From the NCBI GenBank assembly GCA_011391085.1, contig JAABRD010000010.1, positions 62,001 to 126,000 of the forward strand: a DNA stretch of 64,000 nucleotides. The letters run 5' to 3'. The notes under the pieces were generated by a model. It did no database searches, had not been told where the DNA came from, and was given only the letters and a program-made list of their open reading frames with translations. Below are positions 6,888-46,974 of this stretch, in pieces (the first letter of the stretch is position 1; each line of letters starts with the position of its first letter). The stretch comes from Thiotrichaceae bacterium. GTDB taxonomy: Bacteria; Pseudomonadota; Gammaproteobacteria; Beggiatoales; Beggiatoaceae. A program made the translations under genes and the position numbers.

Positions 6888-7880
<993 letters not shown>

Positions 7881-8646: not shown

Positions 8647-8661
8647 TTACCGGTATTTCAA

Positions 8662-9574: not shown

Positions 9575-9647
9575 ATTTACTCATAAAAAAACGGTATCAA
9601 GAGTTGATTACAAATGCCAGGAATCTTCCTGACGGTTTATGGCAACG

Positions 9648-9705
9648 CAGGAGGAAACAGCGTAGCTTTGTACGTGACCTGGCAAAGCTACGCTGTTTCC
9701 TCCTG
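9648..9705. repeat. CAGGAGGAAACAGCGTAGC hairpin between ppk and the methyltransferase gene
   Basis: The arm CAGGAGGAAACAGCGTAGCT is repeated in inverted orientation after a 12-base loop, giving a ~23-bp stem. It could terminate ppk transcription, though there is no U tract. Related hairpins built on AGCGTAGCTTTG lie at 14504 and 52784. Confidence 0.75.
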
Positions 9706-9746: not shown

Positions 9747-11912
9747 CTAAGCTTTTTCGGCCAATCGTTGCAACAACGTTTGCTGTGCCGAAATGGGCGT
9801 GGCATCCGCCGGTGGTGTCAAGCGCGTATAATTTCCGTCACGGTCTAATACCCACGCCTGGGTATTATCTTGCAAATATAGCTTTAAACCTTCCTCGACG
9901 ATGCGCTTTTTCAAATCGGGATTTTCGACAGGATAACACTCTTCTACCCGTTTGGATAGATTGCGATCCATCCAATCGGCACTGGCACAAAATATCTCAG
10001 GGTGATCATCATTTTGAAAATAGTAGGTGCGGGTGTGTTCTAAAAAGCGTCCCACAATAGAACGTACCTGAATGTTTTCTGAAATCCCTGGAATTCCCGG
10101 CCTTAAACAACAAATCCCACGCACAATCAAGTCAATCTTCACGCCTGCCATTGAGGCTTTATATAAAGCACTAATCACCTCTGGTTCCGTCAACGCATTC
10201 ATTTTGGCCATGATATGCGCAGGCTTCCCTTGCCGGGCATTTTCGGCTTCCCGTTCAATGCGTTCCAGCATTCCTGTTTTCAACGTAAACGGCGATTGTA
10301 ACAACTTCCGCAACTTCGCCCCTTTTCCCAACGTGGTCAACTGCATAAACATTTTATGCACATCTTCCCCAATCTCCTTATCGCAAGTCAACAACCCATA
10401 ATCCGTATAGACTCGTGCCGTCCGGGCATGATAATTCCCCGTCCCCAAATGCACATAACGTCGCAATTTCTTGACTTCACGACGCACTATCAACAACATT
10501 TTGGCATGTGTTTTATAACCCACCACACCATAGACGACATGGGCACCCGCTTCTTGTAAACGAGTCGCTAACCGAATATTCTCCTCCTCATCAAACCGCG
10601 CCCGCAGTTCTATCACAACGGTGACTTCCTTATCCGCCCGGGCCGCTTGTACCAACGCATCAACCATCACCGAATCGGCCCCAGTGCGATATAAAGTCTG
10701 CTTGATGGCCAAGACTTGAGGGTCGGCGGCGGCTTGGCGCACCAAATCGATAACAGGGGCAAACGAGTGAAACGGGTGATGTAACAAAATATCACTCTCT
10801 CGAATACTCTCAAATAAGTTCCGTCCCAATCCGCGTGGCAAGCCGGGCGTGAAACTGGGATATTTTAAATCCGGACGATTCACCACATCTGGCAATGGTA
10901 ACAACCGATTCAAGTTCACTGGTCCATTGACTTGATATAAATCTTGACGACCTACCTTAAACTGTTTCAGGAGGAAGTTCACAGTTTGTTCCGGACAATT
11001 GTCTGCCACCTCTAATCGCACACTGTCCCCATAACGACGCCCTGGCAACTCACCTTGCAAGGCCCGTAATAAATCGTCCACCTCCTCCGTATCTACAAAT
11101 AACTCGCTATTTCGTGTCAACCGGAACTGATAACATCCCGTTACCTTCATACCAGGAAACAAATCTTCCACATGGGCATGAATGATGGATGATAAAAAAA
11201 CAAAATCGTATGGATGTTCAGATACCCCTTGAGGTAATTGCACAAACCGTGGCAAAGCCCGCGGTGCTTGCACGACCGCTAATCCACTTTCGCGTCCAAA
11301 CGCATCTTTACCTTCCAAGGACACGATAAAATTCAAACTTTTATTCAAAATCCGGGGAAACGGATGGGCGGGGTCTAAACCAATCGGACTTAAAATGGGC
11401 AACAGTTCTTCGCTAAAATATTCGCGGATCCACTGACTTTGCGCATTACTCCAGCAGTCTCGTTTGAGAAAATAAATGCCTTCCTTTTCCAACGCAGGAA
11501 ACAGACTTTCATTGAGTAAACGATACTGTTCATCTACAAATTGATGGGCTGCTACACCAATCCGGTTTAGCACGTCTTGAGGAGATAAGTTATCTTGACC
11601 AGAAGGCAAGGCACCAAACGCGGCCTGTTGCTTAAAAATAGCGACACGCACTTCAAAAAATTCGTCTAAGTTGGTGCTGGCAATCCCTAAAAATCGCAAC
11701 CGTTCCAATAACGGCATGGTGTGGTCGGTTGCCTGGGCCAACACGCGCCGATGAAACGCCAGTAAACTCAATTCGCGGTTGATGTACAATTCGGCACAAG
11801 AAAGGTCAAATTCCTGGTTTTCTCCAAAACTCACAACGTTTTTTCCTAAAATTGTGGCTGACTCTTTTTTGAGACATTTGGCAGCAATATCGTTATCTGT
11901 TTGAATAGTCAT
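9747..11912 (-). CDS. ppk1: Polyphosphate kinase 1
   Basis: This 721-residue protein makes polyphosphate reversibly from ATP. It shows the N-terminal domain (YINRELSLLAFHRRVL, ~42-57), a middle domain, and two C-terminal phospholipase-D-like domains. The phosphohistidine lies in GYKTHAKMLL, followed by VHLGTGNYHARTARVYTD; the second conserved histidine region is FLEHTRTYYF. Length and order are standard. Polyphosphate storage would suit the large-cell sulfur-bacterium guess, but the enzyme is widespread. No ppx neighbour is visible. The start is the ATG at 11912; ATG context is weak, and the upstream gap is filled by repeats. Confidence 0.96.
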   Translation of the reverse strand: MTIQTDNDIAAKCLKKESATILGKNVVSFGENQEFDLSCAELYINRELSLLAFHRRVLAQATDHTMPLLERLRFLGIASTNLDEFFEVRVAIFKQQAAFGALPSGQDNLSPQDVLNRIGVAAHQFVDEQYRLLNESLFPALEKEGIYFLKRDCWSNAQSQWIREYFSEELLPILSPIGLDPAHPFPRILNKSLNFIVSLEGKDAFGRESGLAVVQAPRALPRFVQLPQGVSEHPYDFVFLSSIIHAHVEDLFPGMKVTGCYQFRLTRNSELFVDTEEVDDLLRALQGELPGRRYGDSVRLEVADNCPEQTVNFLLKQFKVGRQDLYQVNGPVNLNRLLPLPDVVNRPDLKYPSFTPGLPRGLGRNLFESIRESDILLHHPFHSFAPVIDLVRQAAADPQVLAIKQTLYRTGADSVMVDALVQAARADKEVTVVIELRARFDEEENIRLATRLQEAGAHVVYGVVGYKTHAKMLLIVRREVKKLRRYVHLGTGNYHARTARVYTDYGLLTCDKEIGEDVHKMFMQLTTLGKGAKLRKLLQSPFTLKTGMLERIEREAENARQGKPAHIMAKMNALTEPEVISALYKASMAGVKIDLIVRGICCLRPGIPGISENIQVRSIVGRFLEHTRTYYFQNDDHPEIFCASADWMDRNLSKRVEECYPVENPDLKKRIVEEGLKLYLQDNTQAWVLDRDGNYTRLTPPADATPISAQQTLLQRLAEKA

Positions 11913-16313: not shown

Positions 16314-18689
16314 TTAATGCGGCACCTTAGCCGCTAACGGCCGATACATCAACCCATAAAACATCTCCAAATACCGTTGTGTCTCAGCCCGTTCCAAATT
16401 CGTGGCGTACTTCCAAAAACCATACACCCGTGATAATGTCATCAAACGTTCGGCATACAGTCGCCAATTATAACGACTTTGCACACGTTGCAACGCCCCG
16501 TTAGAAATTTGTTGCCAATACTCTGGGTGACTTTGGCAATGTTCAAAAAACTCGATTAGACGCGAGGTCACCTTTTCCCCATGATTCGGATCAATGTGAA
16601 ATCCCGAAATCCCATCTTGAATGATTTCTAACGGGCCACCGTAACAGGTAGCAAACGTTGGCAAGCCTGACGACATGGCTTCAATCACCGTCAAGCCAAA
16701 GGCTTCAAATAACGCCGGTTGTACAAATATACCACCTTTATCAGCGATGTAACGATATAATTCGCCTGCTAGACGTTTCTCCAAATGTTTACCTAGCCAA
16801 CGCACTTTCTCATCGAGTTGATAATGAGTCAACCACTCGTGCATCTTCCCAATTTGTTGACGTTCCTCCTCATCGGTAGAACGTTCGCTGTCAACGTGTC
16901 CGGCAATGACTAACAGATTGGCCCAATTTTGCAAGGCGGGACTCTGACCGTACCATTCTACTAGACTGGTGATATTTTTAATTCGATCCAGTCTCGCCAT
17001 CGTAAAGATAATTGGTTTATCACGATCACGATATTCACCACGACTCTCCGGTGAAGCACCTCCAAACACCAGTGACTCAATTTCTCCATGCAAGGCGGTC
17101 AACCGTTGTTCCGTTTGAGTATAGGGAAAATACACCGTCTCATCAGCCCCTGGGGAAACGATATTAAACTTGGGATCATAAACGTTAATACCATTGACCA
17201 CGCGGTACAAACCGGGCATAGCAAACCAACTATAACTTTCATATTGACCGACGCTGTGAAGGTTCCCGGCAATCTCTTGATGAGTGCTGGTAATCACAAA
17301 ATCCGCGGTATTCATAGCTATCAAATCGGCCGTAAATTGGGTCGCAAAATGATATTGGGCATCCAAATTTTTCCAGAATAAAGCGGAGTACAGATATTTG
17401 GTTTTTTCCAGGGCGTGGGCAATGGCACATTGAGTCACCTTCAACCGTTGTGAAACCAGAGTAGCAACCAGGTTGCCATCCGAATAATTACCAATAATTA
17501 AGTCTGGACGACCTCCAAAGTGGGCCAGTAATTCCTTTTCCACTTCCAGCGCAAAACGTTCCAAGTAGGGCCACACCGCAAATCGTGAAATCCAGTGGGG
17601 TATCACTCGCCCTTGTTCATCGCGAAACGGAATCCGTAAAATGACGGCATTATCGGTTCCCTTGATGGGTTCCAAACATTCGTCACAAGTGGTATTCCCG
17701 GCATCAGGAATTAAGCGCGAGACCACCACGATTTTCGGGAAAATGTCAAAACCCTGTTCATATAACCGTTGCCGCATCTCCTTTTCCAACGCTTGGACTT
17801 GGTCCAAAATATAGACCACTTGTCCCCCGGTATCTGGCAACCCTAACACGCCCGATTGCCCAAAATAACCATGTGGAGAAATAATAGCGACTTTGAAAAT
17901 CATCGGAATCCTGGCCAGAAAACGTTCCACCTGGCCAGGTTCGGGGGCCTGCAAAATATCTGACAACAAACCGAGAGTGTCCAATATGCGTTCCACCGTC
18001 CTCCCCCAGCCGGGTTCGAATCCGATCTCTTGCAGTCGGTGATAGACTTGTGACCAAGTGGCGGTCAAGGGCTGGGAAGATAAATATTTTTCTGCCTGGC
18101 GCAAGGCCTCACGTAATTTGCGAGGGGAGATAACTCGATCATTTAACATCAATGGTTGACCTTGATATTGATGAACATGTAAGAACTGAAAAATTAACTC
18201 ATCACCATCTTTTTTAGATAGTAATTGGTTACACAAATGCCGATTGAGAAATTCCACGCCTCGCCCAATCGACCGCGGTTCTGTCAATTTCGGAAATTCT
18301 CGATAAAAGGGGGCGAGGTCCACCTCTAGTACCCAATCGCTATCCTTTTGGGTTTTCTCAGGAACCCGTTCTTTGAAGCGCAAAAACGTGTTGATGTCAA
18401 TCCATTCGGGTTTCATCACATCAATATGAAACCGACAAAATTGCCAGTCGCCAGGCCCAGCCCGCACGACTAAGTATAGCCACGGATCAATGGCAATGGC
18501 TTCTTGAATATTACTCAACCAGCTAGCCAGTTCCGTGTCTTTCCAAGAGTCTTCCAAAGTTTCTTGGCAAAATTGTTCAAACCGATCACACACATCGGAA
18601 CGGAGAAACAAGTTGCGTTCGCCACCGACGAGGGGTCTAAAAATCAGATACAGGGCTTTCTGATAACGGTCTTCTTGAAAGAAATTCAT
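16314..18689 (-). CDS. sus: Sucrose synthase
   Basis: A 791-residue GT4-family enzyme that reversibly forms sucrose from NDP-glucose and fructose. The first ~260 residues are the SUS regulatory domains. The catalytic part opens with [20 protein letters not shown] and [11 protein letters not shown], as in plant and nitrifier sucrose synthases, and contains the GT4 E-x7-E motif EAFGLTVIE followed by [11 protein letters not shown]. Length matches bacterial and plant SUS. It lies upstream of no related gene on its own transcript, but a sucrose-phosphate synthase fusion is the next gene on the same strand, 422 bp away across a repeat cluster. Together they suggest sucrose is made and re-mobilised. 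Confidence 0.94.
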
Positions 18690-18732
18690 GGTTGTGGTTC
18701 CTATCTATTATAAAGCAAAGTTTTTTGCTGTT

Positions 18733-19100
18733 GGAGTACGGAATTTATTCCGTTGCCGTTGCCGTCGCCGTTGGAGTACGGAATTTATTCCGTTGCCGTT
18801 GGAGTCCGGAATTTATTCCGTTGCCGTTGGAGTACGGAATTTATTCCGTTGCCGTTGGAGTACGGAATTTACTCCGTTGCCGTTGGAGTACGGAATTTAT
18901 TCCGTTGCCGTTGGAGTCCGGAATTTATTCCGTTGCCGTTGGAGTCCGGAATTTATTCCGTTGCCCGTAGCGGAATAAATTCCGTACTCCAACATCAAAA
19001 CCACGGAATAAATTCCGGACTCCAACATCAACATCAAAACCACGGAATAAATTCCGTACTCCAACATCAAAACCACGGAATAAATTCCGGACTCCAACAG
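18733..19100. repeat. GGAGTACGGAATTTATTCCG cluster: eight forward and four inverted copies
   Basis: Eight copies of GGAGTACGGAATTTATTCCG (or GGAGTCCGG) occur, mostly with a 28-bp period and CGTTGCC spacers. Four inverted copies follow, separated by CAACATCAAAACCA spacers. The unit is itself palindromic (CGGAATTTATTCCG). The block could fold into a large cruciform between the two sucrose genes. The long ORFs over it are repeat artefacts. Confidence 0.88.
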
Positions 19101-19111
19101 CAAAATCAAAA

Positions 19112-21304
19112 TTATGACTTCACCTGGTCTTCCCAAATTTCAAAATGTTGCAACCCCTCGATGATTCCACCAGCGTTAGATTTTTGTGCAAAGTAAATAC
19201 AAGGTCGGCCACGCAATTTTTCCAATTCAGGACTGTAATTACCCACCACGATACCGCAGGTATCTCCTTTCAACATCTCTTCATCATTCCCAGAATCGCC
19301 GGCCACGATAAACCGGTCCAGCGGCAACCCCCACCGCATGGCTAGGTAACGTACCGCCAGCCCTTTTGAGGCACGAATCGGAAGTACATCGATTAAACGT
19401 CCTTCGGTGACAATGACCGTGGCCAATAGGCGTTGTTGACGTAACCGACTCACTACGGGTCGGCGTGTCAGTGGTAACTTGTGGTTCTTGACGGCCACAT
19501 AACTGATTTTAAAGTTACTTTGATGTTCTGGTGGTTGCGGTTCAAACTCTTTAAACCCGGCCAAGGCTGCACGTATTTTATCAGGTTCCCAACGAAAGCC
19601 AATATGTTGTTGCCACCCTTTATCTTTGGCAAATCTCCTGCCATAGTAAATTTCGGTGCCGACGGCGGTGATAAAAACATCCGGAGAAGGGATCTCCCAT
19701 TGTTCCAGAATCTCCCTGGCACTTGCCAAATGACGACCTGTGGCTACCCCAAAACTGACTTGTTGGGCTTGATGAAGGTAATCCAGGAGTTCTTTCAGAG
19801 CCTTAGCATCACCAATCAAGGTGTTGTCAATATCAGAAATAAGGGCACGATTAGACATAAGAATTTTCTTATCAAAAGCGAGACCGGTTTTGTTAGGGTG
19901 AGGTTTCGGCATTTCCACACTAACCGCATCTTGGTACAGAGAAGCGGATGGCAGTTTCGTAATGGCAGTTTCCAGATGGTGGAGGTAAGTTTGGACATGA
20001 CTAGACCACGAGTAGTATTGTTTCACTTTGGTCATGCCGTTTTTCGACCATTGTTGCCAACGTTGCTTATCAGTCAAAGCCGATTCAATCGCTTCGCCGA
20101 TGGCTTGGGTGTTCAACGGATCGATTAATAAGCCGTTTTGACAATTTTTGATAATGTCTGTGGGTCCCCCATCGTGAGTCGCAATAATAGGTAATCCCGT
20201 GGCCGCAGCTTCAATGAGGGTGATGCCAAAAGGTTCGGTCAACGCGGGATTGACAAATACCCCTTGAGTATTGATGGCCAAGTGGTAAAAGTGCGGAATC
20301 TCTTCTGAACAGTGGTGTTTGGGATAAGCGACTTTACCATATAAGTCATATTTGTCAATGGCTAACAACATCTCGGTCCAGACTTGCCGTGCCCCTTTAT
20401 CCAAATCCTTGATGTCTTGACGGTTGCCAGCAATAATCACTAAATTGGACAAATTAGGCAACTGTGGATGTTCGCCGTAGGCTTTAATCAGGGCTGGAAC
20501 GTTCTTGCGTTCATCGGCGCGGGATACCGCCAAAATCATCGGCTTTTGAGGTTCTTGCAGGAAGCGGGCAATTCTTTCATAAATGCCGATAGGTGGCAAG
20601 TAGTTGTCAATCCGATAGAAATTCTCTAAATCCACGCCAGGGGGAATGACTTGCATTTGGCGAGGGTCATAATGTTCATATTGTTCATACTGTTCTCGCA
20701 CTTCTTGAGGTGTGCTGGCGATGATTAACGAGGCGGCATTGAGGGCGCGTTCTTCGGCTTCAATACGATAACCCATGTTGTATTCTTCCTGAATTTTTGC
20801 CGGAGTCAGTCCTTTTTCTAACAACCGGGCACGTTTAACTCGACCCAACGAATGACCTGTGAACACCAAAGGCACTTCTAGCATGTGGGCTAACATCGTT
20901 CCTACATAGCCAGCATCGGCATAATGTCCATGAATAGCGTCTGGTAACCAATGCGACCGGCGAAAATAGTGTAGCACTTGGTCCACACAATTTTCTAGGT
21001 AAGGCCATAACACCTCTTTTCTCAAATAACGTCTCGGTCCAAAAGGAACACGGACAATATACGCATTGCCACCCAGCGGTTCTAAAGGCTTGGCATAATC
21101 TTGACTGACTTTGGGGTCCACAATTTGGCGAGTGAACAAATCCACACGCGCCACTTGTTCATGTCGTCCCAATTCCCTGACCAGTTCGACCACGTATTTG
21201 ACTTGACCACCAGTATCAGCGTCGCGTCCCAGTTCAATATTGTCACCACGTACTAGCCCGTGCAGACTAAACATGGCAAAGTAACGTTTTTTGGTAGGGT
21301 TCAT
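19112..21304 (-). CDS. Sucrose-phosphate synthase fused to sucrose-phosphatase
   Basis: About 730 residues, two enzymes in one chain. The N-terminal ~470 residues are a GT4 sucrose-phosphate synthase (FSLHGLVRG, DTGGQVKYVVELVREL, HGHYADAGYVG, and E-x7-E in EPFGITLIE). The C-terminal ~240 residues are a HAD-type sucrose-phosphatase domain with motif I DIDNTLIG, motif II ATGR, and motif III/IV AGDSGNDEEML, all intact. The product would therefore turn UDP-glucose and fructose-6-phosphate into free sucrose. I start at the ATG at 21304 (MNPTKKRYFAMFSLHG), which fits the family; the in-frame ATG at 21349 lies in a GTCCCAACACACG repeat. The frame ends just inside the upstream edge of the repeat cluster. 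Confidence 0.94.
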   Translation of the reverse strand: MNPTKKRYFAMFSLHGLVRGDNIELGRDADTGGQVKYVVELVRELGRHEQVARVDLFTRQIVDPKVSQDYAKPLEPLGGNAYIVRVPFGPRRYLRKEVLWPYLENCVDQVLHYFRRSHWLPDAIHGHYADAGYVGTMLAHMLEVPLVFTGHSLGRVKRARLLEKGLTPAKIQEEYNMGYRIEAEERALNAASLIIASTPQEVREQYEQYEHYDPRQMQVIPPGVDLENFYRIDNYLPPIGIYERIARFLQEPQKPMILAVSRADERKNVPALIKAYGEHPQLPNLSNLVIIAGNRQDIKDLDKGARQVWTEMLLAIDKYDLYGKVAYPKHHCSEEIPHFYHLAINTQGVFVNPALTEPFGITLIEAAATGLPIIATHDGGPTDIIKNCQNGLLIDPLNTQAIGEAIESALTDKQRWQQWSKNGMTKVKQYYSWSSHVQTYLHHLETAITKLPSASLYQDAVSVEMPKPHPNKTGLAFDKKILMSNRALISDIDNTLIGDAKALKELLDYLHQAQQVSFGVATGRHLASAREILEQWEIPSPDVFITAVGTEIYYGRRFAKDKGWQQHIGFRWEPDKIRAALAGFKEFEPQPPEHQSNFKISYVAVKNHKLPLTRRPVVSRLRQQRLLATVIVTEGRLIDVLPIRASKGLAVRYLAMRWGLPLDRFIVAGDSGNDEEMLKGDTCGIVVGNYSPELEKLRGRPCIYFAQKSNAGGIIEGLQHFEIWEDQVKS

Positions 21305-21339
21305 GGTAGTTTCAAATTTTGCTAAAAAATATGTGGAGT

Positions 21340-21806
21340 CCCAACACACGTGTTGGGACGACGTGGGCTGGCGAAAGTCCTCAATGCCATTAAGTTAAGG
21401 AATAAAAGTAGCCAAGGAATTAAAGTCGTGGTGGACTAGAGGCTTTAGCCGGAGGGTGGGTCCCCGCGATTTCAATGGTGTTCCACTCCCCACCGGCTAA
21501 AGCCTCTAGTCCTACGGTCCATTAATTGATTCTTTAACTTAATGGCATTGCGGCTGAAGCCTCCAATCCGGCCTTGGATTTTTGGTAGTGTTGTACAAGT
21601 AATGGTATAGCGGTTTTGGAGTACGGAATTTATTCCGTTTCCAGCGGAATAAATTCCGTACTCCAACGGAATCAATTCCGTACTCCAACGGAATCAATTC
21701 CGTACTCCAACGAAATAAATTCCGTACTCCAACGAAATAAATTCCGTACTCCAAAACCCACAACCATTACCTTTGCATCACTACCAACCCATTCCCCATT
21801 AATCCA
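21340..21806. repeat. Repeat-filled gap of at least four families
   Basis: No gene is seen. It contains a GTCCCAACACACGTGTTGG hairpin at about 21342-21361, the AATGCCATTAAGTTAAGGAA motif, a GGACTAGAGGC palindrome at about 21430-21516, and a GGTAGTG-flanked block (21584-21785) that encloses a GGAATTTATTCCG cluster. Confidence 0.85.
21584..21785. mobile_element. GGTAGTG-family element enclosing a GGAATTTATTCCG cluster
   Basis: The ends GGTAGTGTTGTACAAGTAAT and ATTACCTTTGCATCACTACC form an imperfect terminal inverted repeat of the GGTAGTGATGCAA family. The interior holds one forward and five inverted copies of the GGAGTACGGAATT repeat. No target duplication is visible. Confidence 0.6.
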
Positions 21807-26914: not shown

Positions 26915-28285
26915 ATGATGACTAATATAACCTATCAACCAGTGGAAACTTTTTTTTACCACGATTTTGCCCGTGAACTTCTCCCCGTTCCCCCTTCTTC
27001 AAAAAGATGTCTGATTTGCAGTGGTCGTGGATTGGGCAAGACGGAATTACTGGAACATCTGAGGCAAAAGTTGGAAGCCGAAGAATCTGTGGGAAAGTGC
27101 TTCTTTTGTGCCTGTCGTCAACATCCCCTGGAGGAGATAGAGACACTCAATACCCTGAGTGATCCCTCCAAAAAATCAATAGAGGCCAAACCCAGTTTGC
27201 TGATTGACAATTTGGATTATCTCTTAGACTATCTATGGAGTCAGTACGACGAAGAGACGTTTCGAAACAAGCTACGGACAATCCAGAACGTGTTGCAATC
27301 CTTCCCGCAAGAAGGGAATATTTACATTTCAACTTCCACTCCCTTGATTCAATTGGTCGGACGGCAATTTGAAACAGAGGAGGTGAAGAAGGCTTGGAAA
27401 GATGTCTGGTCAATCCCTCTTCAACAATTCGAAGTGCAAGAAGTGAATCCCTGGCGAGGCGTTTGGCCGGCCCGAATAGAATCTTTTATTCAGCAGGCGT
27501 TTGGCCAATTAACCGAGTCACCGACCTCTCTGGAAAAAGAGTGGAAAAAAGCCACCGTGATGGTGACGGGAGGACATCCTACTTTGGTGGGGGCCACCAT
27601 GAAACTTTTGAATCAGTTGTTGTCAAAATTTATAACTGGCAAAATTTCCGAATTATCGGAGTTTGAACAAAGTCTAATCATGGTCAAAAAGGGACTTGTA
27701 GAGGCCAACGCTACTGACAGAATTGTCAACTATCTGTTGGATAAGCTGTCCCACACCAAATTGCCGATCTTGTTGCAGGTGCTACAAGATTTGAAAGGGT
27801 TTGATGAGAGAATTTACCAAGAGTTGATCGCCTTGACGAATGGCAATCTGTCGCCCAAAGACCTTTCCTCTCGTTCTCGTACCACTTTGCTTTATCACGG
27901 TCTGGCCCATCCCGATGAGAAGACCGGTGAATATGTGGTCACAGGTGAATTGTTACGCCAGGAATTGATGCGCTACTCTGATAACCGCGTGTTGAGTCTT
28001 TCCAGTCAAGAGCTCGATAGTCAAAGTGGCAAAGTCCTATGTCAGTCAGGCTTGTCTGTGCAAGAACTGGAATTATCCGGCGTGCTTTGGCTAATTTGGA
28101 AGACTTTAATTCACGAGAAGGACAAGCTATGGTCAGTGTCAGAGATTGCCATACAAACTGGGTTAAAAACCGATACCGCCGTACGGTCCGCGTTGCAACG
28201 CTTAGGACGGTTGTTGGAGGAGAGGAATGTTCGCGTGTTGGAGAACGTGCGGGGGAAGGGGTATCGGATTAAGGGGAATGGGTGA
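26915..28285 (+). CDS. P-loop ATPase with C-terminal winged helix
   Basis: A 456-residue protein with an STAND/AAA-like ATPase layout. The P-loop is SGRGLGKT (residues 36-43; Ser replaces the first Gly), with Walker B SLLIDNLD at 94-101. A middle region of helical ATPase lid type follows. Residues ~385-454 look like an OmpR-type winged helix: EIAIQTGLKTDTAVRSALQR, then LEERNVRVLENVRGKGYRIK. The DNA-binding domain at the C-terminus of an ATPase suggests a signal-responsive transcription regulator or a defence sensor (inference). ATG 26915 and 26918 are both possible, both after AGAGGA. It is preceded by a good promoter and faces the ParB/ParA pair tail to tail. I do not recognise a named family. 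Confidence 0.75.
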   Translation: MMTNITYQPVETFFYHDFARELLPVPPSSKRCLICSGRGLGKTELLEHLRQKLEAEESVGKCFFCACRQHPLEEIETLNTLSDPSKKSIEAKPSLLIDNLDYLLDYLWSQYDEETFRNKLRTIQNVLQSFPQEGNIYISTSTPLIQLVGRQFETEEVKKAWKDVWSIPLQQFEVQEVNPWRGVWPARIESFIQQAFGQLTESPTSLEKEWKKATVMVTGGHPTLVGATMKLLNQLLSKFITGKISELSEFEQSLIMVKKGLVEANATDRIVNYLLDKLSHTKLPILLQVLQDLKGFDERIYQELIALTNGNLSPKDLSSRSRTTLLYHGLAHPDEKTGEYVVTGELLRQELMRYSDNRVLSLSSQELDSQSGKVLCQSGLSVQELELSGVLWLIWKTLIHEKDKLWSVSEIAIQTGLKTDTAVRSALQRLGRLLEERNVRVLENVRGKGYRIKGNG

Positions 28286-28525: not shown

Positions 28526-29281
28526 CTAGGTGGTGACTTCTTTGGAAGTTGCATCAAAGTTCTCATGTAGCGCAACCAAGTCTGGCTTTCTCATCTTACT
28601 ATACCCTTTGATACCTTTTTGCTTGGCCAACTCCATGAGTTGGCCAACGGTCATCTTGGTATAGGCAGAGTCACCGTCAATGGTGATTTCTACCCTGGGT
28701 TTTCTTGCCATTCCGAGTTTACTCCAATTCTCTTGAATGACTTGTACAAGTCGTGGCGCCAGTTCTTCTATGACTACTTTTTGGACCTCTTGGCGGAGCA
28801 TTTCTACAAGGCGTTCTGCCGCTTTCATTTGGTCTGACACTTGTTCGATTTTCTTGTTCATGCTATCCATCCGTTCTTGAAAAGTATGTTCCATTCGCCG
28901 CACTATATCTACCAACAATGGCTGATCCGAAAGCGCCGGCGGTGGTAAGGGTGAGGGTGATACCACGGGATTTTCCAAACTCCGCAACATATCAAGCTGT
29001 TTGCGAATAGCTTCTTCATGCTTTGGTGAAATCACCAAAGCATCAATCATTTCCCCCTTGCGAGGGTCTATTTCTCTAGCGACGACTGCCGCATAATATT
29101 CACGGTCGCCGTCGATAACTGCATAACTGTCCAAGCCGGTGATTTTGAGGATGGGCGGTTTTAACACGCCTTCACATGCCAAAATCATTTCAGCTAACCG
29201 CGCTAATTCAGTTTCTTCAAACTGCGAACGGGGGACGGGGGACGTAATACTCTTAACATCTATTAAGCGAAAATCCATCAT
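28526..29281 (-). CDS. ParB-like protein with Rho-N/SAP-like tail
   Basis: A 251-residue protein. Residues ~5-100 resemble the ParB/Srx N-terminal domain: PRSQFEETELARLAEMI, GVLKPPILKI, and IDGDREYYAAVVARE in the place of the ParB GERRxRA CTP-binding box (the Arg pair is not kept). A coiled-coil stretch follows (~125-180, with MEHTFQERMDSMNKKIEQVS). The C-terminal ~45 residues (TVGQLMELAKQKGIKGYSKM, RKPDLVALHENF) resemble Rho-N/SAP nucleic-acid-binding modules. No helix-turn-helix of classical ParB is evident. Its start is 4 bases after the stop of the ParA-fusion gene, so the two form an operon. Probably a partner or regulator of the ParA fusion (inference). Confidence 0.75.
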   Translation of the reverse strand: MMDFRLIDVKSITSPVPRSQFEETELARLAEMILACEGVLKPPILKITGLDSYAVIDGDREYYAAVVAREIDPRKGEMIDALVISPKHEEAIRKQLDMLRSLENPVVSPSPLPPPALSDQPLLVDIVRRMEHTFQERMDSMNKKIEQVSDQMKAAERLVEMLRQEVQKVVIEELAPRLVQVIQENWSKLGMARKPRVEITIDGDSAYTKMTVGQLMELAKQKGIKGYSKMRKPDLVALHENFDATSKEVTT

Positions 29282-29285: not shown

Positions 29286-30707
29286 TTAACTCGTCTGTTT
29301 CAACACTTCCGCGGCCAACAGGTCAAATTCTTCAGCCGCTTGGTCAGCCGCGGATTCAATTTTACAAAATTCAAAAATGGATTGGGGGTCAGGAATCTCT
29401 AACTCCCCCTCCTTCTTCGTATGACTAACGCATTTTGAGAGGGAGGTTCTCTCATAAATGACGGTGTCCAGCAAGGGCAAGTCATAGTGCTTGCTGACCG
29501 CACTTTTCTGGCGCGGAAACGTATGTTTCAGAAATTGGGCGTTGGTAGAGATTTTCGAAGCCAATACCCCCAACACCGTTAAAGGTGTTCTTCCCATCAT
29601 CGTTTCCCGAAACTCGTTGGCTTGTTTCAGAAAATTTTTGACATTCGCCAGTCCCTGATTGGCAAACGGTTTCAAATCCGAAGGGATTATCAGGTAGTCT
29701 GCGGTTATCAAAGCGATTTCTGAGTATAAATCGCGGGCCGGTGGCGTGTCAATAATCACGAAATCATAGCTGTCCTTCACCCGATTGAGTTTCATCAGAA
29801 GCCGGGACCGACTCGCCCCGATTTTATTCAACTTTTCTTGTGACTCAATCAAGTTGATATGCGAAGGAATGACATCGATTTCGGGATGATTGAAGTTGTC
29901 CGAAGGACGCACCACCTCGGGAATAAAGTCATAGTCTCCGGAACTGAGGATATGCAGGACGTAGCTTTTGATAATACTATCATCCTCCTCAAATTGAAAC
30001 TTGATGAGTCCCGTGGCAAACGTCGAGTTCGCTTGACTATCAATATCAACTAGCAAGACTCGTTGCCCCTTATTTCGAAGGGCCGCCGCTAAGTTAACCG
30101 ACACTGTGGTTTTACCTACACCGCCTTTATTGTGATAAATGGCAATCGTTTTCATAGTTTTTCGGGTTTCTTCTACCTGTTTGGATATGACCTGTTCCAT
30201 CATTGTCACTCCCTCCTTATTCTCCACTCCCTGTTCCGTTCCTGGCGTGGTTATAGATTTTGGGAGTTCTTCCGACAATTCTTGTCTGCCAATCAATTGG
30301 CGAATTTCGTCCAGTTTTTTCTCGATACCATGACCAAAACATTGAAATACGAGTTCTATAGAATCGTTTTTCCGTTCATAAATTCTAATCTCTTTGCCAT
30401 TGGTAAGCAAGCCATATTTGACGGTGGCATCGGCCAACATATACTCACGTAATTGCCGAATATGATGACTGAGATTAGTACGTGGATGTTTAGCCTCTAA
30501 CACGACACTGGGGGCGTCCAGCGTGTGACTGGCGTTTGCCACAAAATCTAGGCGAAACCGATTTTGCTGAACTTGTTGATGCCATAAATAGGGTGGATAA
30601 CCTAAAATAGGCAACAGGTAACTCACCAGCAATTTGCTTTCTACTTCTCTTTCATTATGACAAAATTCGGGGTCAAAAGGCGAATTGGGTTCAAGTGTGG
30701 TTGACAT
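29286..30707 (-). CDS. HsdR_N-like nuclease domain fused to ParA/MinD ATPase
   Basis: A 473-residue fusion. Residues ~15-140 match the N-terminal domain of type I restriction subunits: EREVESKLLVSYLLPILGY, then FRLDFV (D54) and VVLEAKHP (E71, K73). These give a PD-(D/E)xK pattern D-x16-ExK. Residues ~187-473 are a ParA/Soj ATPase: KGGVGKTT (194-201), LLVDIDSQANST, FVIIDTPPAR, and late GVLASKIS. Lys/Gly/Asp residues of the deviant Walker motif are intact. A Glu/Lys-rich linker joins the domains. The ATG at 30707 has GGAG eight bases upstream and a strong promoter. ParA with a ParB-like neighbour normally segregates DNA; a nuclease-like partner domain instead suggests plasmid maintenance or defence. 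The exact combination is one I do not recognise. Confidence 0.82.
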   Translation of the reverse strand: MSTTLEPNSPFDPEFCHNEREVESKLLVSYLLPILGYPPYLWHQQVQQNRFRLDFVANASHTLDAPSVVLEAKHPRTNLSHHIRQLREYMLADATVKYGLLTNGKEIRIYERKNDSIELVFQCFGHGIEKKLDEIRQLIGRQELSEELPKSITTPGTEQGVENKEGVTMMEQVISKQVEETRKTMKTIAIYHNKGGVGKTTVSVNLAAALRNKGQRVLLVDIDSQANSTFATGLIKFQFEEDDSIIKSYVLHILSSGDYDFIPEVVRPSDNFNHPEIDVIPSHINLIESQEKLNKIGASRSRLLMKLNRVKDSYDFVIIDTPPARDLYSEIALITADYLIIPSDLKPFANQGLANVKNFLKQANEFRETMMGRTPLTVLGVLASKISTNAQFLKHTFPRQKSAVSKHYDLPLLDTVIYERTSLSKCVSHTKKEGELEIPDPQSIFEFCKIESAADQAAEEFDLLAAEVLKQTS

Positions 30708-30755: not shown

Positions 30756-30784
30756 ATTTTAAATGATAGCAAGTGGGTTGTCAA
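30756..30784 (-). promoter_or_regulatory. Sigma-70-like promoter for the nuclease-ParA operon
   Basis: On the minus strand TTGACA (30784-30779), 17-base spacer, TAAAAT (30761-30756), about 50 bases upstream of the ATG. It overlaps a possible extended -10 element for the opposite strand (TGGTATAGT, about 30788-30796), so the two transcription units may be divergently controlled. Confidence 0.65.
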
Positions 30785-30895
30785 CTGTGGTATAGTAAAA
30801 TTTTCTATAAAATTATATCATGGCATCTGGAACGCAATAAGAATTATTGCGCCTCACCAATTATTTTAGGACTATCCAACGAACGAGAATACCTA

Positions 30896-31567
30896 ATGTC
30901 TATCAACGAATTATTACCGACTCTAACCACTCTGTCACATGCCGATAAGTGGCAGGTTATGCAGTTATTAGTTTCACAACTGGCCCAAGAAGACTCCGCC
31001 AATTGGTCGCATAAATCAACTTCGCAGGAGGATAACCGGAGGTTGAAGGAAAGTGATACCCCACCTCGAGTGGTTGCGAAACTGCCCACAGCGGAAGAGG
31101 AGAAACAAGTGTTTTTGGCCAGAGTGGAAACGTTACTGGCAGAAATTGAAAACTGGTTGTCTGGAGAATTGCAAGTGACTCGCCAGACCATTGAAATCAC
31201 TGAGTTTATAGGCACTTACACGGCCCCTTCCCTGGTCATCCGTCTCCCCCAGGGAAGAAAGTTGGCGGAAGTTTGTCCTGGGAATGCGGGAGTTGTCGCG
31301 GCTGAGGGTCGCATAGACATTCATGGTCGGTTAGGAACGGAGTACCTCTATTTTTATTTGTCGTCACTTATGACGATGTTAAAGGTTTCCCTCGGTAAGG
31401 GGGAAGATATAATACCGGCTGGCACTCTGGTGCCGAATATCCATCTTTCCAGAGGCATCAAGGTAGATGGATGGTATTGGATAGATGAACAGGATATGAA
31501 ACGCCATCTTTTGAATAAAGATTTGTTACTCAAACTCATATCGAGGGTCAGTGACTATGACTTCTAA
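30896..31567 (+). CDS. Unknown protein, first gene of a HEPN-like operon
   Basis: A 223-residue protein starting at the ATG at 30896 (MSINELLPTLTTLSHADKWQ). The helical opening ending VMQLLVSQLAQED is a short module I associate with unnamed proteins of repeat-rich bacteria. The C-terminal half (~85-223) is an alpha/beta domain of unknown family with PSLVIRLPQGRKLAEVCPG, IDIHGRLGTEYLYFYLSS and GWYWIDEQD. An in-frame upstream extension to 30773 is unlikely. It overlaps the start of the next gene by 11 bases, implying translational coupling. Position next to a HEPN gene suggests a partner such as an antitoxin or regulator, but nothing in its sequence proves it. Confidence 0.65.
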   Translation: MSINELLPTLTTLSHADKWQVMQLLVSQLAQEDSANWSHKSTSQEDNRRLKESDTPPRVVAKLPTAEEEKQVFLARVETLLAEIENWLSGELQVTRQTIEITEFIGTYTAPSLVIRLPQGRKLAEVCPGNAGVVAAEGRIDIHGRLGTEYLYFYLSSLMTMLKVSLGKGEDIIPAGTLVPNIHLSRGIKVDGWYWIDEQDMKRHLLNKDLLLKLISRVSDYDF

Positions 31568-32245
31568 CCCATTGCCACCCATTTGGAGGGCTTACCAAAC
31601 CATTTCTAACTGCTTGAAAGCAAACAATAAATCAGCCAAGGTTGTACCGCTTGCAGATGATACTGAACTTGTTGTTAGTGAACCCCTAGCCGATTCACGC
31701 CTCTCTATTCAACAAGGCCATGCCCAACTAAATGACTTATTTGTCTTGGCTTTGTGGGCCACCTTTGAACGGTGTATTCGAGACTACTTACAGGTGAAAG
31801 GTGACAAACTGAAAACCGTTTCGCCTGCGACTTTGGCGGAACCGTTGTATGAACACTTCGGTAGTGATGCAATCTGGGTGAAATATCGCGCGGTTTCTCT
31901 TCGGTCTTGAACTCTGATTGAGATGATTAAATGAGGACTCTGAAAGGAGGCTTGATTAATCATAGTCCCTCTGAAAATCATTTTAATCAGAGTTCAGACA
32001 GTTCACCCACATTGCATCACTACCAACACTTTTATGGCGAAGTGGAGTATTGGAAACCTTACGATATGTTAGAAATACTCAAAGCTACCCTTTCTGAAAC
32101 GGTGTTAGGACATGCCAAACAAATTGTCAAATATAGGGATTGGGTAGCCCATGGTAAAAATCCGAGAAAGTTGCCTTCCGCACTGATAAAGCCGATAGAT
32201 GCCTATGACACATTGAACGAGATTATTAATACTTTGCCAGATTAA
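31557..32245 (+). pseudogene. HEPN-like gene split by a small mobile element
   Basis: The frame from ATG 31557 (MTSNPLPPIWRAYQ) runs correctly to residue 101 (LYEHF) at 31859 and is then broken by a 165-bp MITE. Its continuation (YGEVEYWKPYDMLEIL) starts at about 32033 in another frame and ends at 32245. Removing 173 bp (element plus one 8-bp target copy) gives an uninterrupted 172-codon frame. In the restored protein, YRDWVAHGKN supplies the HEPN Rx4-6H motif (R136, H141); the first half is helical. HEPN proteins are often RNases of toxin-antitoxin or defence systems. In the present form only the first part, without the active motif, can be made. Small differences between the target copies show that the insertion is not very recent. 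Confidence 0.85.
31860..32024. mobile_element. 165-bp GGTAGTGATGCAA MITE inside the HEPN gene
   Basis: Terminal inverted repeats GGTAGTGATGCAATCTGGGT and its near complement at the right end. Flanking direct repeats are AACACTTC (31852-31859) and AACACTTT (32025-32032), 7 of 8 bases equal. The interior is closely related to the copy at 44709-44872. No transposase, so it is non-autonomous. TIR and 8-bp duplication resemble the IS6 family (IS26 end GGCACTGTTGCAAA); this link is inferred. Confidence 0.88.
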
Positions 32246-34504: not shown

Positions 34505-36832
34505 TCAACTGGTTCGCCACAGTTTAATCATCTTATCCTCCCCCCCACAAGCCAACCAATGTCCATCTGGACTAAACGCCGTACACAACACCGAGTTGGA
34601 AGGTCCTTTCAAAGTTCTCTCTTCCACACCCGTTGCCACCGACCAAATTTTAAGAGTGTAGTCCCAACTGCCACTCACTAGCCATAAACTATTTGGACTA
34701 AAGGCAACATACCAAACCGAGTCAGTATGACCATAAAACGTATGACGCACGGTGCCAGTGGCCACCGACCACAATTTGAGGGTATGGTCTTTACTGGCAC
34801 TGGCTAACCATTGACCATCTGGACTAAATATCACGGAAGTCACCCAATCGGTGTGACCTGGGAGAAGAAATTGTTCTTCGCCACTAGCCACTGACCAAAG
34901 TTTGATGGTATGATCTTGACTACCGCCGGCTAACCAGTGACCGTCGGGACTGAAGGCAATGGAAGTCACCACTTGAGAAGGTGGACTCAAGGTTAACTGT
35001 TCTTGATCCGTGGCAAATGACCAAAGTTTGATAGAACCGTCCCAACTGGTACTGGCTATCTGTTGACCATCCGGACTGATTGCGATACCGAGAACCCAAT
35101 CGGTATGTCCACGCAAGGTATGACGCACTTCGCCCGTTTTGAAAGACCAAATTTTGACGGTGCCATCGTCACTGCCACTGACAAGCCATTCACCATCTGG
35201 ACTAAATGTGACCGAAGTGATAAAATCGGTATGTCCAGTCAAAGTCCGAATCTCTCGGCCACGGGTGACAGACCAGAGTTTGATCGTTTTATCCCCACTG
35301 CCACTGGCCAACCATAAGTTGTCAGGACTAAAAGCCACGGCGAGAATGGCACTGGTATGCCCTCGCAACGTCGCCACCTCGGTCAGACTGGACACATATT
35401 TTTGATTCGCTTTGACCGTCGCCAGTTGGGCCATCGCGTGTTGACCTACTGAGGCCAATGTGTTTGCCCATTCTTGCCAACTGCGGTAACTTTCGGGTTT
35501 CAATTGCGTCACTTTTTCAAAACAAGTGACGGCTTGTTGTGGTTGCCCTAAGCCAGTTAACGCCATCCCACGATAAAACCAGGCATCCGCAAAGTCGGTC
35601 TGTTTTTCTACCAAGGTGGCTAAACAATCGGCGGCGTCGGTATAACGACCTGCTTCATACCAAGCCAGACCGCGTTTGAAAGCGGCTTGCGTGAAATCCG
35701 GCCGCGATTTTACCGCATGATGAAAACGTTGTTCTGCCGCCTGCGGAGAATCCAAATCGAGTAAACGTTCACCGTCTTCATAACCAATTTGAGATTGATT
35801 GAGATGATAAGCATCTTGTAACAACTGTAAGGGTTGAGTCAACCACGCTTGCGGAAATTCCTCTTGCAAATGCAACAACCGTGGTTCATAATTGCGGTCC
35901 AAATTGAGATAATACCAATCGGTAAAACAAGTCGCTAAGAGTTGATACGTTTTGACCAGTTGTTGACGAATTTGATACAGACTCTCATCACTGTCATAAC
36001 CTTGAGATTCCAACCCTTTTCTCTCCTCCCGCCAATTCCATGGAACGGCGGTGATTTTGGCAAACGAGTCGTTTTGCCAACCCCAGACGCCAATGTTAAA
36101 AAACACTTCGCGGTCCGTGATGTCACAATATATCACGGCGGTAGGAATGGGTGCCAGAACGGTTCGCAGTTGTTTGATGTCTATATCAAAAATGTCTCGA
36201 TTGAAATAGTCACTGTAACATTCGACTGGATAGAGAGAGTTTTCAGAGTAATGCGTATTCAAGAAGAGTTTCAAATGGTTACGAATTTCTTGAGGCAGAT
36301 TATAAATAATCGAGTCAGGACAATTTTTGCTAATATTGGGCGGGGCCACCAGGAGGAGGAGTGGATATTGGTCACGTCCTTTGACTAACAACTCTTCAGT
36401 AGCTGTGCGACTCAACCGCGAAGGCCAATTTTTTTCCAGGGCATCCCATTGACTTTCAATTTCTTTGAGTTTCAGGTTAAACTCTTGCGCTTTGAGTTCA
36501 CATAAAATATGACGATACAAGGCACTTTCTTGGGTATGAAATTCGTCAATGAGGCGCGTGAACTCATTGGGTGACAAAGATTGATGTTGGGTGAGATGGG
36601 CCAAGCGTTGAAAACCCTCCCGTTGGGCCGCCAGGAGCCGTTCATCTTGTTTAGCTTGGTCGATTTTGCTAGAGGAAACACCCAAACGGCGCCGATCTGT
36701 CGTCCCCGTCGACGGTTCAAGTTTTGGGAGAGGAGGCGTTTGCTGGGCCCATTGTGTGGCAATCTCCAAAAGGGGACGATGGGTCGTGTGAAGAATGAAA
36801 TTAGTGAGGATCGGTTTAAGAGGGAAGGGCAT
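34505..36832 (-). CDS. TPR and seven-bladed WD40 repeat protein
   Basis: About 775 residues starting at the ATG at 36832 (MPFPLKPILTNF); a 32-residue upstream extension is repeat-derived. Residues ~1-330 are an uncharacterised region containing LLLLVAPPNISKNCP and AVIYCDITDREVFFNIGVWG. About three TPRs follow (~355-460: AAFKRGLAWYEAGRYTDAAD, AWFYRGMALTGLGQPQQAVT). The C-terminal ~290 residues hold seven WD40 units (RGHTSAILAVAFSPD, GHTDFITSVTFSPDG and so on, each ending IKLWS), enough for one complete propeller. The protein is likely a cytoplasmic scaffold. The N-terminal region may be an effector domain; similar multidomain proteins occur in cyanobacteria and large sulfur bacteria. Confidence 0.88.
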   Translation of the reverse strand: MPFPLKPILTNFILHTTHRPLLEIATQWAQQTPPLPKLEPSTGTTDRRRLGVSSSKIDQAKQDERLLAAQREGFQRLAHLTQHQSLSPNEFTRLIDEFHTQESALYRHILCELKAQEFNLKLKEIESQWDALEKNWPSRLSRTATEELLVKGRDQYPLLLLVAPPNISKNCPDSIIYNLPQEIRNHLKLFLNTHYSENSLYPVECYSDYFNRDIFDIDIKQLRTVLAPIPTAVIYCDITDREVFFNIGVWGWQNDSFAKITAVPWNWREERKGLESQGYDSDESLYQIRQQLVKTYQLLATCFTDWYYLNLDRNYEPRLLHLQEEFPQAWLTQPLQLLQDAYHLNQSQIGYEDGERLLDLDSPQAAEQRFHHAVKSRPDFTQAAFKRGLAWYEAGRYTDAADCLATLVEKQTDFADAWFYRGMALTGLGQPQQAVTCFEKVTQLKPESYRSWQEWANTLASVGQHAMAQLATVKANQKYVSSLTEVATLRGHTSAILAVAFSPDNLWLASGSGDKTIKLWSVTRGREIRTLTGHTDFITSVTFSPDGEWLVSGSDDGTVKIWSFKTGEVRHTLRGHTDWVLGIAISPDGQQIASTSWDGSIKLWSFATDQEQLTLSPPSQVVTSIAFSPDGHWLAGGSQDHTIKLWSVASGEEQFLLPGHTDWVTSVIFSPDGQWLASASKDHTLKLWSVATGTVRHTFYGHTDSVWYVAFSPNSLWLVSGSWDYTLKIWSVATGVEERTLKGPSNSVLCTAFSPDGHWLACGGEDKMIKLWRTS

Positions 36833-36836
36833 GGTT

Positions 36837-36953
36837 TTAGTGGATAGTGGATAGTGGATAGTGGATAGTGGATAGTGGATAATAGGTACCGGAGTGGAGG
36901 CTTTAGCCGGGGGACGTGCCACCTTCACCGGCTAAAGCCTCTACTCCGGCCTG
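36837..36953. repeat. GGATAGT simple repeat and GGAGTGGAGGC palindrome
   Basis: About five units of GTGGATAGTGGATA (36840-36880) are followed by a GGAGTGGAGGC/GCCTCTACTCC palindrome (36894-36946). Confidence 0.8.
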
Positions 36954-46072: not shown

Positions 46073-46654
46073 TTAAATAGCCAGTTGAACCATAGTGGAC
46101 ACGATAAACACATGGGATTCGGTTGGAAGAGTTTGAAATTTCCAACCAATTTTGGTCTGGTAGTCATTAATCATGGTCAACAGACCTAATCTGGATTGCG
46201 TAGAGTTATCGTTTTCCGCATTTTCTTCCAATTGGCGGATATAGAGTTCTTGAGTGTCAGAGTGTCTCAACTTTTGGATAAATGCCTGGAATTTCTCACC
46301 ATTTTGAAGAGAAACACTGTTCGTGATGTGAAATACAATTTGGTCTGGGTACAACTGAAGTTTGATACTAACAGGCGTGGCAGACGAATCATCATTAAAC
46401 TTCATGGCATTTTCCAACAGTTCATTAGCGATGTAACTGACCGCATTTCTGACTTCAGCTTGTTTTCTAAGACTCGCTGGTTCAGAGTCGTTAGCGGGAA
46501 AAAACGTAGCCAGGTAGTCAGCCAAAAAATCCGCCGACAATCCGTTGTTACGCCAACGTTGTTTAAGCGGAAGAGAGGCGGGCGAAAACCCAAGTATCAG
46601 AAATTCATCACTAAAAGGTATTTTGTCGTCATAATCACCAAAGATTTGAACCAT
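46073..46654 (-). CDS. HATPase-like regulator, partner of the STAS protein
   Basis: 193 residues starting at ATG 46654 (MVQIFGDYDD); the 53 residues before it in the longer frame are translated from GGATAGTGGATAAC repeats and are not real. The region YIANELLENAMKFNDDSS is an N-box like that of anti-sigma serine kinases and histidine-kinase ATPases, but no clear G-box is visible. The fold would fit a kinase or binding partner of the STAS protein, comparable to SiaB or slr1658 regulators. A GGDEF gene lies next upstream on the same strand, resembling Sia-type modules that pair partner switching with c-di-GMP. Confidence 0.7.
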   Translation of the reverse strand: MVQIFGDYDDKIPFSDEFLILGFSPASLPLKQRWRNNGLSADFLADYLATFFPANDSEPASLRKQAEVRNAVSYIANELLENAMKFNDDSSATPVSIKLQLYPDQIVFHITNSVSLQNGEKFQAFIQKLRHSDTQELYIRQLEENAENDNSTQSRLGLLTMINDYQTKIGWKFQTLPTESHVFIVSTMVQLAI

Positions 46655-46659
46655 ATTTG

Positions 46660-46974
46660 TTATAGTGGATAACGGATAGTGGATAGTGGATAGTGGATAA
46701 CGGATAGTGGATAGTGGATAGTGGATAACGGATAGTGGATAGTGGATAACGGATAACGGATAATGGATAGTGGATAGTGGATAACGGATAGTGGATAGTG
46801 GATAATCAAACATGCGGGACTAGAGGCTTTAGCCGGAGGACGGGGCATGTCACCGGCTGAAGCCTCTAGTCCAGCAAATTATACTTCACTATCCACTATC
46901 CACTATCCGTTATCCACTATCCACTATCCGTTATCCACTATCCGTTATCCACTATCCACTAAAGCCACTATCCG
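46660..46974. repeat. GGATAGT/GGATAAC simple repeats flanking a GGACTAGAGGC palindrome
   Basis: About 135 bp of GGATAGTGGATAGTGGATAA (46667-46802) and about 85 bp of its inverse CTATCCACTATCCGTTATCC (46889-46974) enclose a GGACTAGAGGC palindrome (46816-46874). The block is symmetrical and could form a long cruciform. Confidence 0.85.

Follow-up and report, generated by a model that had tools for sequence, protein, structure and literature searches.

A ParA-type ATPase fused to a PD-(D/E)xK domain and its ParB-like partner: a conserved gene pair that may act on DNA

What might a partition-type ATPase do with a nuclease-type domain of its own? The question is raised by a locus on contig JAABRD010000010.1 of a Thiotrichaceae bacterium (assembly GCA_011391085.1), of which a stretch of 64,000 nucleotides, hereafter the window, was analyzed. 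On its reverse strand, the window encodes a protein of 473 amino acids (29286..30707) that consists of an HSDR_N_2 domain of the PD-(D/E)xK type, a flexible linker (residues ~149-184) and a Soj-type ParA ATPase; the next gene, 4 bases away on the same strand, encodes a ParB-like protein of 251 amino acids (28526..29281). The original prediction for this locus, which gave these coordinates and this spacing exactly, held that the fusion falls outside the standard genes of partition and of restriction, and a fusion of this kind paired with a Rho_N-tailed ParB-like protein indeed fits neither description. What ParA and ParB proteins are known to do is move DNA rather than cut it. The parts of this system are known; new are their combination, its spread, and its links to lineages without ParABS and to AbiL. 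In literature searches, mostly judged from titles, no publication on a ParA–PD-(D/E)xK fusion or on the pair that it forms with its partner was found, so that no earlier description with a known function came to light.

Domain architecture of the fusion protein and its partner

The N-terminal domain (residues 10-145; 30273..30680, reverse strand) was delineated from a Pfam match, sequence conservation and the secondary structure of an AlphaFold model. Residues 28-116 match HSDR_N_2 (PF13588) with an E-value of 2.2e-7 and 31.4 bits, above the Pfam cut-off of 25, and the match to HSDR_N (PF04313), at 24.4 bits, is slightly below its cut-off of 25.1, so that the expected resemblance to HsdR_N/PD-(D/E)xK profiles is present. 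The predicted D-x16-ExK arrangement also holds: the positions of D54, E71 and K73 were verified, and 16 residues separate the aspartate from the glutamate. In an alignment of 62 members of at least 400 amino acids, position 54 is D in 59, N in 2 and a gap in 1 (the exceptions, L058, L060 and L065, have truncated or poorly aligned N-termini), and E71 and K73 are each retained in 61. Such conservation across relatives indicates that the signature is not due to chance. In the AlphaFold model of the fusion (mean predicted local distance difference test score, pLDDT, 73.2), the first 125 residues form a helix, three strands, a helix and three strands, with D54 on strand two and E71/K73 within strand three or immediately past it, which is the order expected of a PD-(D/E)xK domain. 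The N-terminal PD-(D/E)xK domain of the R subunit of type I restriction enzymes belongs to the same Pfam families (HSDR_N, HSDR_N_2), but the fusion has ParA where the R subunit has a helicase, and no HsdM or HsdS genes were recognized by eye among the open reading frames of the window, which sets this locus apart from type I restriction systems.

The C-terminal domain (residues 185-473; 29289..30155, reverse strand) is a complete ParA ATPase, with AAA_31 covering residues 185-365 (E-value 2.7e-51). It contains the deviant Walker A motif KGGVGKT with both lysines, K194 and K199, together with D221/D223 and D320; the deviant Walker A with its signature lysine, the Walker A' and the Walker B of Soj-type ParA ATPases are all present. 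Among 15 motif positions checked, 14 are invariant in 62 of 62 relatives, and the remaining one, I319, is I in 61; a family-specific stretch, FQFEEDD (residues 237-243), is invariant in 30 of 30. Soj/ParA proteins are the closest to this half both by fold and among solved sequences, and a fold search with the whole fusion, in which the N-terminal domain was not compared by itself, identifies solely ParA/MinD-type proteins among the 50 matches listed. Judged from sequence, the fusion thus joins a PD-(D/E)xK domain in which the signature residues are intact to a ParA with intact ATP-site motifs, as had been predicted.

The partner comprises a ParB_N fold (residues 1-103), a long helix or coiled coil (121-188) and a Rho_N tail (~202-248). 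The Rho_N match has an E-value of 4.2e-9 and 36.7 bits (cut-off 24.9); that of ParB_N, with an E-value of 1.8e-5 and 25.1 bits, is slightly under the Pfam cut-off of 26.3, and at E-values up to 0.05 ParB_N is found in all 29 partners scanned, the one from the window included. The AlphaFold model (mean pLDDT 88.5) consists of a ParB-type N-terminal domain, the long helix and a helical tail. With VIA-align, the N-terminal domain is similar to Myxococcus ParB (7bnk, Z 11.5, root mean square deviation 3.0 across 91 residues), Noc (7ol9, Z 10.8) and PadC (6ryk, Z 10.2), and the tail to Rho (Z 6.7 over 47 residues, which is weak if taken alone). Thus, the identification of a ParB-like partner with a Rho-N/SAP tail in the original prediction is confirmed by both profile and model.

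The type of tail varies by clade. At E-values up to 0.05, the 29 partners include 7 with Rho_N, 6 with SAP, 11 with HHH_6 and 9 with DUF655 matches. A profile of 28 tails that are not of the Rho_N type, chosen by eye, identifies AF1531 (2i5h), which we take to be a DUF655 helix-hairpin-helix protein, with an E-value of 2.6e-6. In many cyanobacteria, the tail is probably of the helix-hairpin-helix type; this reading is only probable because the HHH_6 and DUF655 matches are weak (best E-values 0.0024 and 0.00012, respectively). No helix-turn-helix family is present among the 25 listed of the 69 Pfam families matched by the 29 partners, and AlphaFold predicts a long helix in the region where canonical ParB has its central helix-turn-helix. 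No parS-like 16-mer with up to 3 mismatches to the consensus occurs in the window, where 0.56 would be expected by chance, so that this absence carries little information.

The pair resembles canonical ParABS in its Soj-type ATPase with an intact deviant Walker A, in the ParB N-terminal fold of the partner and in the adjacency of the two genes, but differs from it in the added PD-(D/E)xK domain, in the Rho_N/SAP or probable helix-hairpin-helix tail, in the lack of helix-turn-helix families among the matches listed, and in two motifs of the partner. Box II of the ParB fold is given as GxxR in a 2025 survey (PMC12704722). In the partners, GxxE takes its place in 60 of 66 sequences, neither GERR nor GHRR occurs in any of the 66, and the ParA-binding motif LG-R/K-GL, as defined in the same survey, is likewise found in 0 of 66. 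The replacement of GxxR by GxxE suggests that CTP switching has been lost or changed in the partner, although the survey cautions that sequence does not predict the nucleotide choice of ParB-fold proteins. The fusions of the ParB-CTPase fold described there (Kaljevic et al. 2025, PMC12704722) are similar to the partner in that a ParB_N fold is combined with another domain in a non-canonical protein. According to the survey, however, only the DUF3850 fusion consistently adjoined parA, unlike the partner considered here, which adjoins parA in nearly all loci and whose ParA bears a nuclease-type domain. Its main text does not mention Rho_N; the survey used the Pfam cut-off, slightly below which the ParB_N match of the window's partner falls.

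Distribution and inheritance of the gene pair

A scan of named genomes identifies 51 relatives of the fusion, 43 from cyanobacteria, as assigned by record title, and 8 from other bacteria, 7 of the latter being metagenome-assembled genomes; this list is biased towards sequences that have short peptides in common with the window. The cyanobacterial holders include Nostoc, Anabaena, Calothrix, Tolypothrix, Fischerella, Planktothrix, Okeania and Chamaesiphon, so that many, although not all, presumably belong to filamentous genera. The other holders are Desulfobacteraceae, Desulfobacter latus, Candidatus Electrothrix, two Riflebacteria, Bacteroidales, Chloroflexaceae and Synergistaceae. In the window's own family, Beggiatoaceae, the fused form is present in 21 of the 36 genomes, that of the window included, with two copies in G007, and a sample of the class yields matches at an E-value of 1e-60 in 2 of 369 genomes, namely the window's own and one other member of the family. 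In the phylum of the Nostoc loci, 50 of 292 genomes match, 35 of these with full-length proteins by count; in that of the Desulfobacteraceae locus, the only match among 198 genomes is the one chosen as the center of the sample. Among the genomes of 23 named loci, 22 were searched, and each of these contains exactly one copy at an E-value of 1e-40.

In 68 of 71 loci, the partner gene follows directly downstream of the fusion gene on the same strand, at a distance of -28 to +48 bases; of the other three, two are contig ends (L057 and L072) and one is a fragmentary copy (L073). The same two-gene order thus recurs in other genomes, and by sequence the fusion and its partner constitute a real family, with the two genes inherited as a pair. 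Four genomes from the phylum of the Nostoc loci (G507, G606, G708 and G556) encode proteins with open frames of 505-532 amino acids in which both domains are matched at 210-224 bits; they may represent a family that is sister to the fusion. Further matches in this phylum, e.g., in G433, G533, G542, G544 and G667, are limited to ParA.

Over 58 members, the mean pairwise identity is 59.6% for the N-terminal domain, 60.5% for ParA and 47.0% for ParB_N, so that the N-terminal domain is conserved to nearly the same degree as ParA and more strongly than ParB_N; with shared descent left in, the pairwise identities of ParA and ParB_N are correlated at 0.91 and those of the N-terminal domain and ParA at 0.78. 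A closer view of this association comes from one Nostoc chromosomal site, defined by the same neighbor at position -1, which holds two deeply different types of ParA, one in L023, L024, L025 and L029 and the other in L045, L047, L051 and L069. In all 16 between-type pairs, the N-terminal domains are 87-95% identical at the protein level and the ParA domains only 66-70%; the partner tail is nearly identical (82-91%) in 6 pairs, those of L023, L024 and L025 with L047 and L069, and differs (36-52%) in the other 10. Comparison of L024 with L047 at the DNA level reveals 89-97% identity from upstream of the genes through most of the N-terminal domain (7473-8273), with 93-97% for most of that domain itself, 62-81% across ParA and ParB_N (8473-9673), and again 91-93% over the coiled coil and the tail (9773-9973). 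As read from these identities, ParA and ParB_N of Nostoc are exchanged as one block that spans the gene boundary (around 8400-9700 in L024/L047), and the swapping of the two as a single cassette is good evidence that they interact.

The pair also appears to move over longer distances. In a tree of the ParA part, the window's family falls in three separate places, which implies transfer of the pair between phyla. The ParA of the window is placed beside Riflebacteria, Desulfobacterota, Bacteroidales and Synergistaceae, with a support of 89/65 for the exact position and 99/87 for the wider group.

Possible functions of the pair

The explanation that we favor, tentatively and at close to an even chance, is that the pair is a chromosome-encoded two-protein system that acts on DNA, with the fusion protein being an ATP-gated nuclease. 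Soj dimerizes on DNA upon ATP binding. Under the proposed mechanism, the partner would sit on DNA via its tail and use its ParB_N fold to engage the ParA half, and ATP binding would let ParA dimerize on DNA, which would bring two nuclease domains together and thereby license cleavage; ATP hydrolysis would reset the complex, so that the ATP-dependent assembly would serve as a gate on DNA cleavage. If so, a nucleoid-binding ATP switch can also control the cutting of DNA. With regard to the biological role of such a nuclease, a function in removing or restricting DNA that is foreign or aberrant is possible, its chances falling a little short of even, and is slightly preferred over maintenance given the intact nuclease signature, the RloB/AbiL fusion described next, the horizontal spread and the cassette exchange. 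Positioning or maintenance of many-copy chromosomes without canonical ParABS is favored by the single copy, the housekeeping context and the absence of ParABS, and we consider it doubtful as the main role.

The connection to abortive infection comes from three genomes of relatives, G018, G007 and G033, in which the fusion carries an additional N-terminal RloB domain (PF13707; E-values 5e-26, 3e-31 and 4e-33, respectively) and is encoded directly behind an AbiLi-like AAA gene. The resulting proteins, with RloB (AbiLii), PD-(D/E)xK and ParA in one chain, map to L074:7841-9706, L078:6246-8219 and L081:8287-10212. Two of the three pass the HSDR_N_2 cut-off, and L081 falls short of it (19.4 bits). 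In a simple motif search, the RloB part of L078 shows both EGxxTExxY and a DxD-type motif, and those of L074 and L081 the DxD-type motif only. These fusions tie a partition-type ATPase to abortive infection and share with AbiL/RloA-RloB systems the arrangement of AbiLii/RloB behind an AbiLi-like ATPase; they differ from those systems in that the AbiLii match in a PADLOC search is essentially confined to the RloB part in L074 and L078, and there is no RloB match in the window's genome. In G032, an AbiLi-like gene is located upstream of the pair, with no RloB fusion. More generally in the window's family, among 93 proteins encoded next to 20 loci, 5 have matches to the AbiLi, AriA and HEC-01A models, compared to at most 1 of 93 controls, a figure that reflects the absence of these models from the 25 families listed for the controls. 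The AbiLi-like ATPases of L074 and L090 were scanned singly, with that of L090 matching PDC-M07A better; the AbiLi-like genes of L078, L081 and L083 are so called by clustering with that of L074. All these counts are crude, with 25 families listed and control stretches hand-chosen in the same or related genomes: the flanking proteins of the family were reduced from 96 to 93 by removal of those over 900 amino acids, and a length cut left 113 of the 119 controls, 93 of which were used.

Several observations weigh against a gated nuclease with a role in defense. In other lineages, mostly cyanobacteria, no PADLOC family is found in more than 1 of 92 flanking proteins (methyltransferase models lead), whereas Cas12f/TnpB-like and Csx1 models match up to 3 of 92 controls; here, 176 flanking proteins were reduced to 147 by length and then at random to 92, with up to two per locus, and 95 of 108 controls were drawn at random after the length cut, of which 92 were used. 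The neighbors in the mostly cyanobacterial loci are housekeeping genes; for the loci as a whole, neighbors named by eye from protein starts include enolase, ftsH, gyrA, recA, dnaK/dnaJ, aroB, icd and ileS. The proteins of the window itself match PADLOC models only weakly (PDC-M28B on the ATPase, 1.3e-8; mad2 on the N-terminal domain, 0.0013). In the window's family, RloB is common and mostly located elsewhere: a search of 35 genomes detects it in 14, of which 13 belong to the family, at a total of 26 places; only 2 of the 26 are the fused ones, G032 and G033 having been outside that search, and the RloB match in G018, the genome of L074, crosses a stop codon, so that the fused part is truncated. 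The assignment of the N-terminal fold combines a modest Pfam score with a model of middling confidence, which is low at residues 41-60, D54 included (mean pLDDT 53-59). A sequence search for solved relatives of this domain found none that is credible, the best match (E-value 4e-5) consisting of four copies of a repeat within one chain. Finally, in L062, L063, L064, L066 and L067, a ParA of 285-290 amino acids lacks the nuclease domain and the partner is kept, which implies that nuclease action is dispensable for the pair; no separate nuclease gene was recognized by eye beside the pair in these five loci (the upstream sequence of L062 is short). The anti-invader role suggested in the original prediction is accordingly possible, favored by the AbiL connection within the window's family and weakened by the housekeeping neighbors and the lack of any sign of defense enrichment in the other lineages. 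A general defense island was considered and rejected on these crude counts.

The strongest alternative, in our view an unlikely one, is a substitute segregation system that took over after the loss of ParABS, in which ParA would form a gradient on the nucleoid, the DNA-bound partner would follow it, and the PD-(D/E)xK domain would trim, nick or merely grip DNA as the chromosome copies separate. The case for it starts from the window's genome, which is 99.92% complete and contains no TIGR00180 ParB, its only ParB_N match being the partner itself. Canonical ParB is detected in 1 of 36 genomes of the family as opposed to 20 of 21 from elsewhere in the class (Fisher p 3.6e-13, with relatedness ignored), and a PF02195 scan agrees: the sole strong match in the family is in G013, and 9 of the 13 weaker ones are to the partner. 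For cyanobacteria, the other main holder of the pair, PMC7766704 states that there is no classical ParA/B/S mechanism. The pair occurs in groups without ParABS, namely cyanobacteria and nearly all of the window's family (canonical ParB being absent from 35 of 36 genomes), and within the class sample it is confined to that family; it bears on how many-copy chromosomes are organized in cyanobacteria. The single copy per genome, the housekeeping setting and the lack of finds on plasmids or viral contigs (see below) are also compatible with segregation. However, the pair was not detected in 15 of 36 genomes of the family and in 242 of 292 cyanobacteria, and thus is not a required replacement of ParABS; it could be an occasional substitute at most. 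Mutual exclusion of the pair and ParB in cyanobacteria was considered and rejected, as the two co-occur instead more often than expected, with ParB matches in 21 of 50 genomes with the pair and in 46 of 242 without it. Most of these matches score below those of canonical chromosomal ParB, and a genome often has several, which suggests ParB of the plasmid type. Also against segregation, the partner has no ParA-binding motif, an altered Box II and no helix-turn-helix among the Pfam matches listed, and RloB fusion and cassette exchange would be unusual for segregation genes.

Less probable still is that the N-terminal domain is a non-cleaving version of the fold used for DNA binding or docking and that the pair positions some other cargo, in the manner of PadC/bactofilin or McdAB. 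PadC, the Myxococcus ParB-like adaptor, and McdAB, which positions carboxysomes, also combine a ParA-type ATPase with a non-canonical adaptor, and both PadC and McdA are among the structural neighbors of the pair; the five loci that keep ParA and the partner without the N-terminal domain fit this scheme, and the coiled coil of the partner could bind a scaffold. To our knowledge, neither PadC nor McdAB has a nuclease domain, and no link of the pair to bactofilins or carboxysomes was noticed, although no search was aimed at one. Retention of all three signature residues across phyla exceeds what binding alone would need, and the tails of the partners are of nucleic-acid-binding types.

Plasmid or mobile-element stability, proposed in the original prediction, is very improbable despite the ParA-ParB operon layout, the spread between phyla and the three positions of one family in the tree, given the mostly housekeeping neighbors, a chromosomal location wherever contig size allows judgment (e.g., 8.95 Mb in Calothrix and chromosome I in Planktothrix), and the lack of relatives in plasmid or viral records: none spans 80% of the query among the best 5000 PLSDB records, where a Nostoc fusion member has no match at an E-value of 1e-30 and the partner no match, whereas another Nostoc ParB retrieves 44 Nostoc records; 0 of 28 candidate stretches found in IMG/VR with two short peptide patterns were confirmed; and of 149 phage records matched, none covers 80% of the query, the 15 listed being matched by the ParA part.

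Returning to the ATP-gated nuclease, a broader version of it can be envisaged, although we consider it unlikely to hold in full: a new class of ParA machine, in which a nucleoid-bound ATPase with its own nuclease is ordered by a ParB-like adaptor that has given up the canonical CTP switch, and which would have spread among lineages without chromosomal ParABS, guarding the chromosome and destroying invaders and, in some species, being fused to an AbiL effector.

Other features of the window

A candidate promoter, TTGACA-17-TAAAAT (30756..30784, reverse strand), lies about 50 bases 5' of the ATG of the fusion gene. It is a consensus match only (11 of 12 positions), and the stretch scanned contains 10 promoter-like sites compared to 4.9 expected. 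No convincing sequence repeats were found beside the two genes. Divergent genes lie beside the pair in the region 30773-32245, the first of which shows a weak match to the PADLOC candidate model PDC-M52A (3.7e-6). The next two short open reading frames, 31551-31910 and 31931-32245, have no Pfam match and resemble a single gene that has been split; they contain an RDWVAHG motif reminiscent of HEPN proteins. A protein of 456 amino acids (26915-28285) begins with a P-loop-like segment and ends in a weak winged-helix (Trans_reg_C) match, its Pfam matches all being sub-threshold; apart from the window's own copy, no relatives are present in the loci of the pair that were compared.

Elsewhere in the window, positions 16314-21349 encode a sucrose synthase (PF00862, E-value 4.3e-144), the neighbor of which we take to be a probable sucrose-phosphate synthase. 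The region 54040-62449 contains two tandem genes for giant proteins with similar starts, the first of which has a TPS secretion domain (E-value 1.6e-37). Three open reading frames (2246-2722, 34505-36928 and 46073-46813) contain repeated short peptides (PPAKASTP..., HYPLSTIHYPLST...) at the start or inside, which apparently are translated short tandem repeats.

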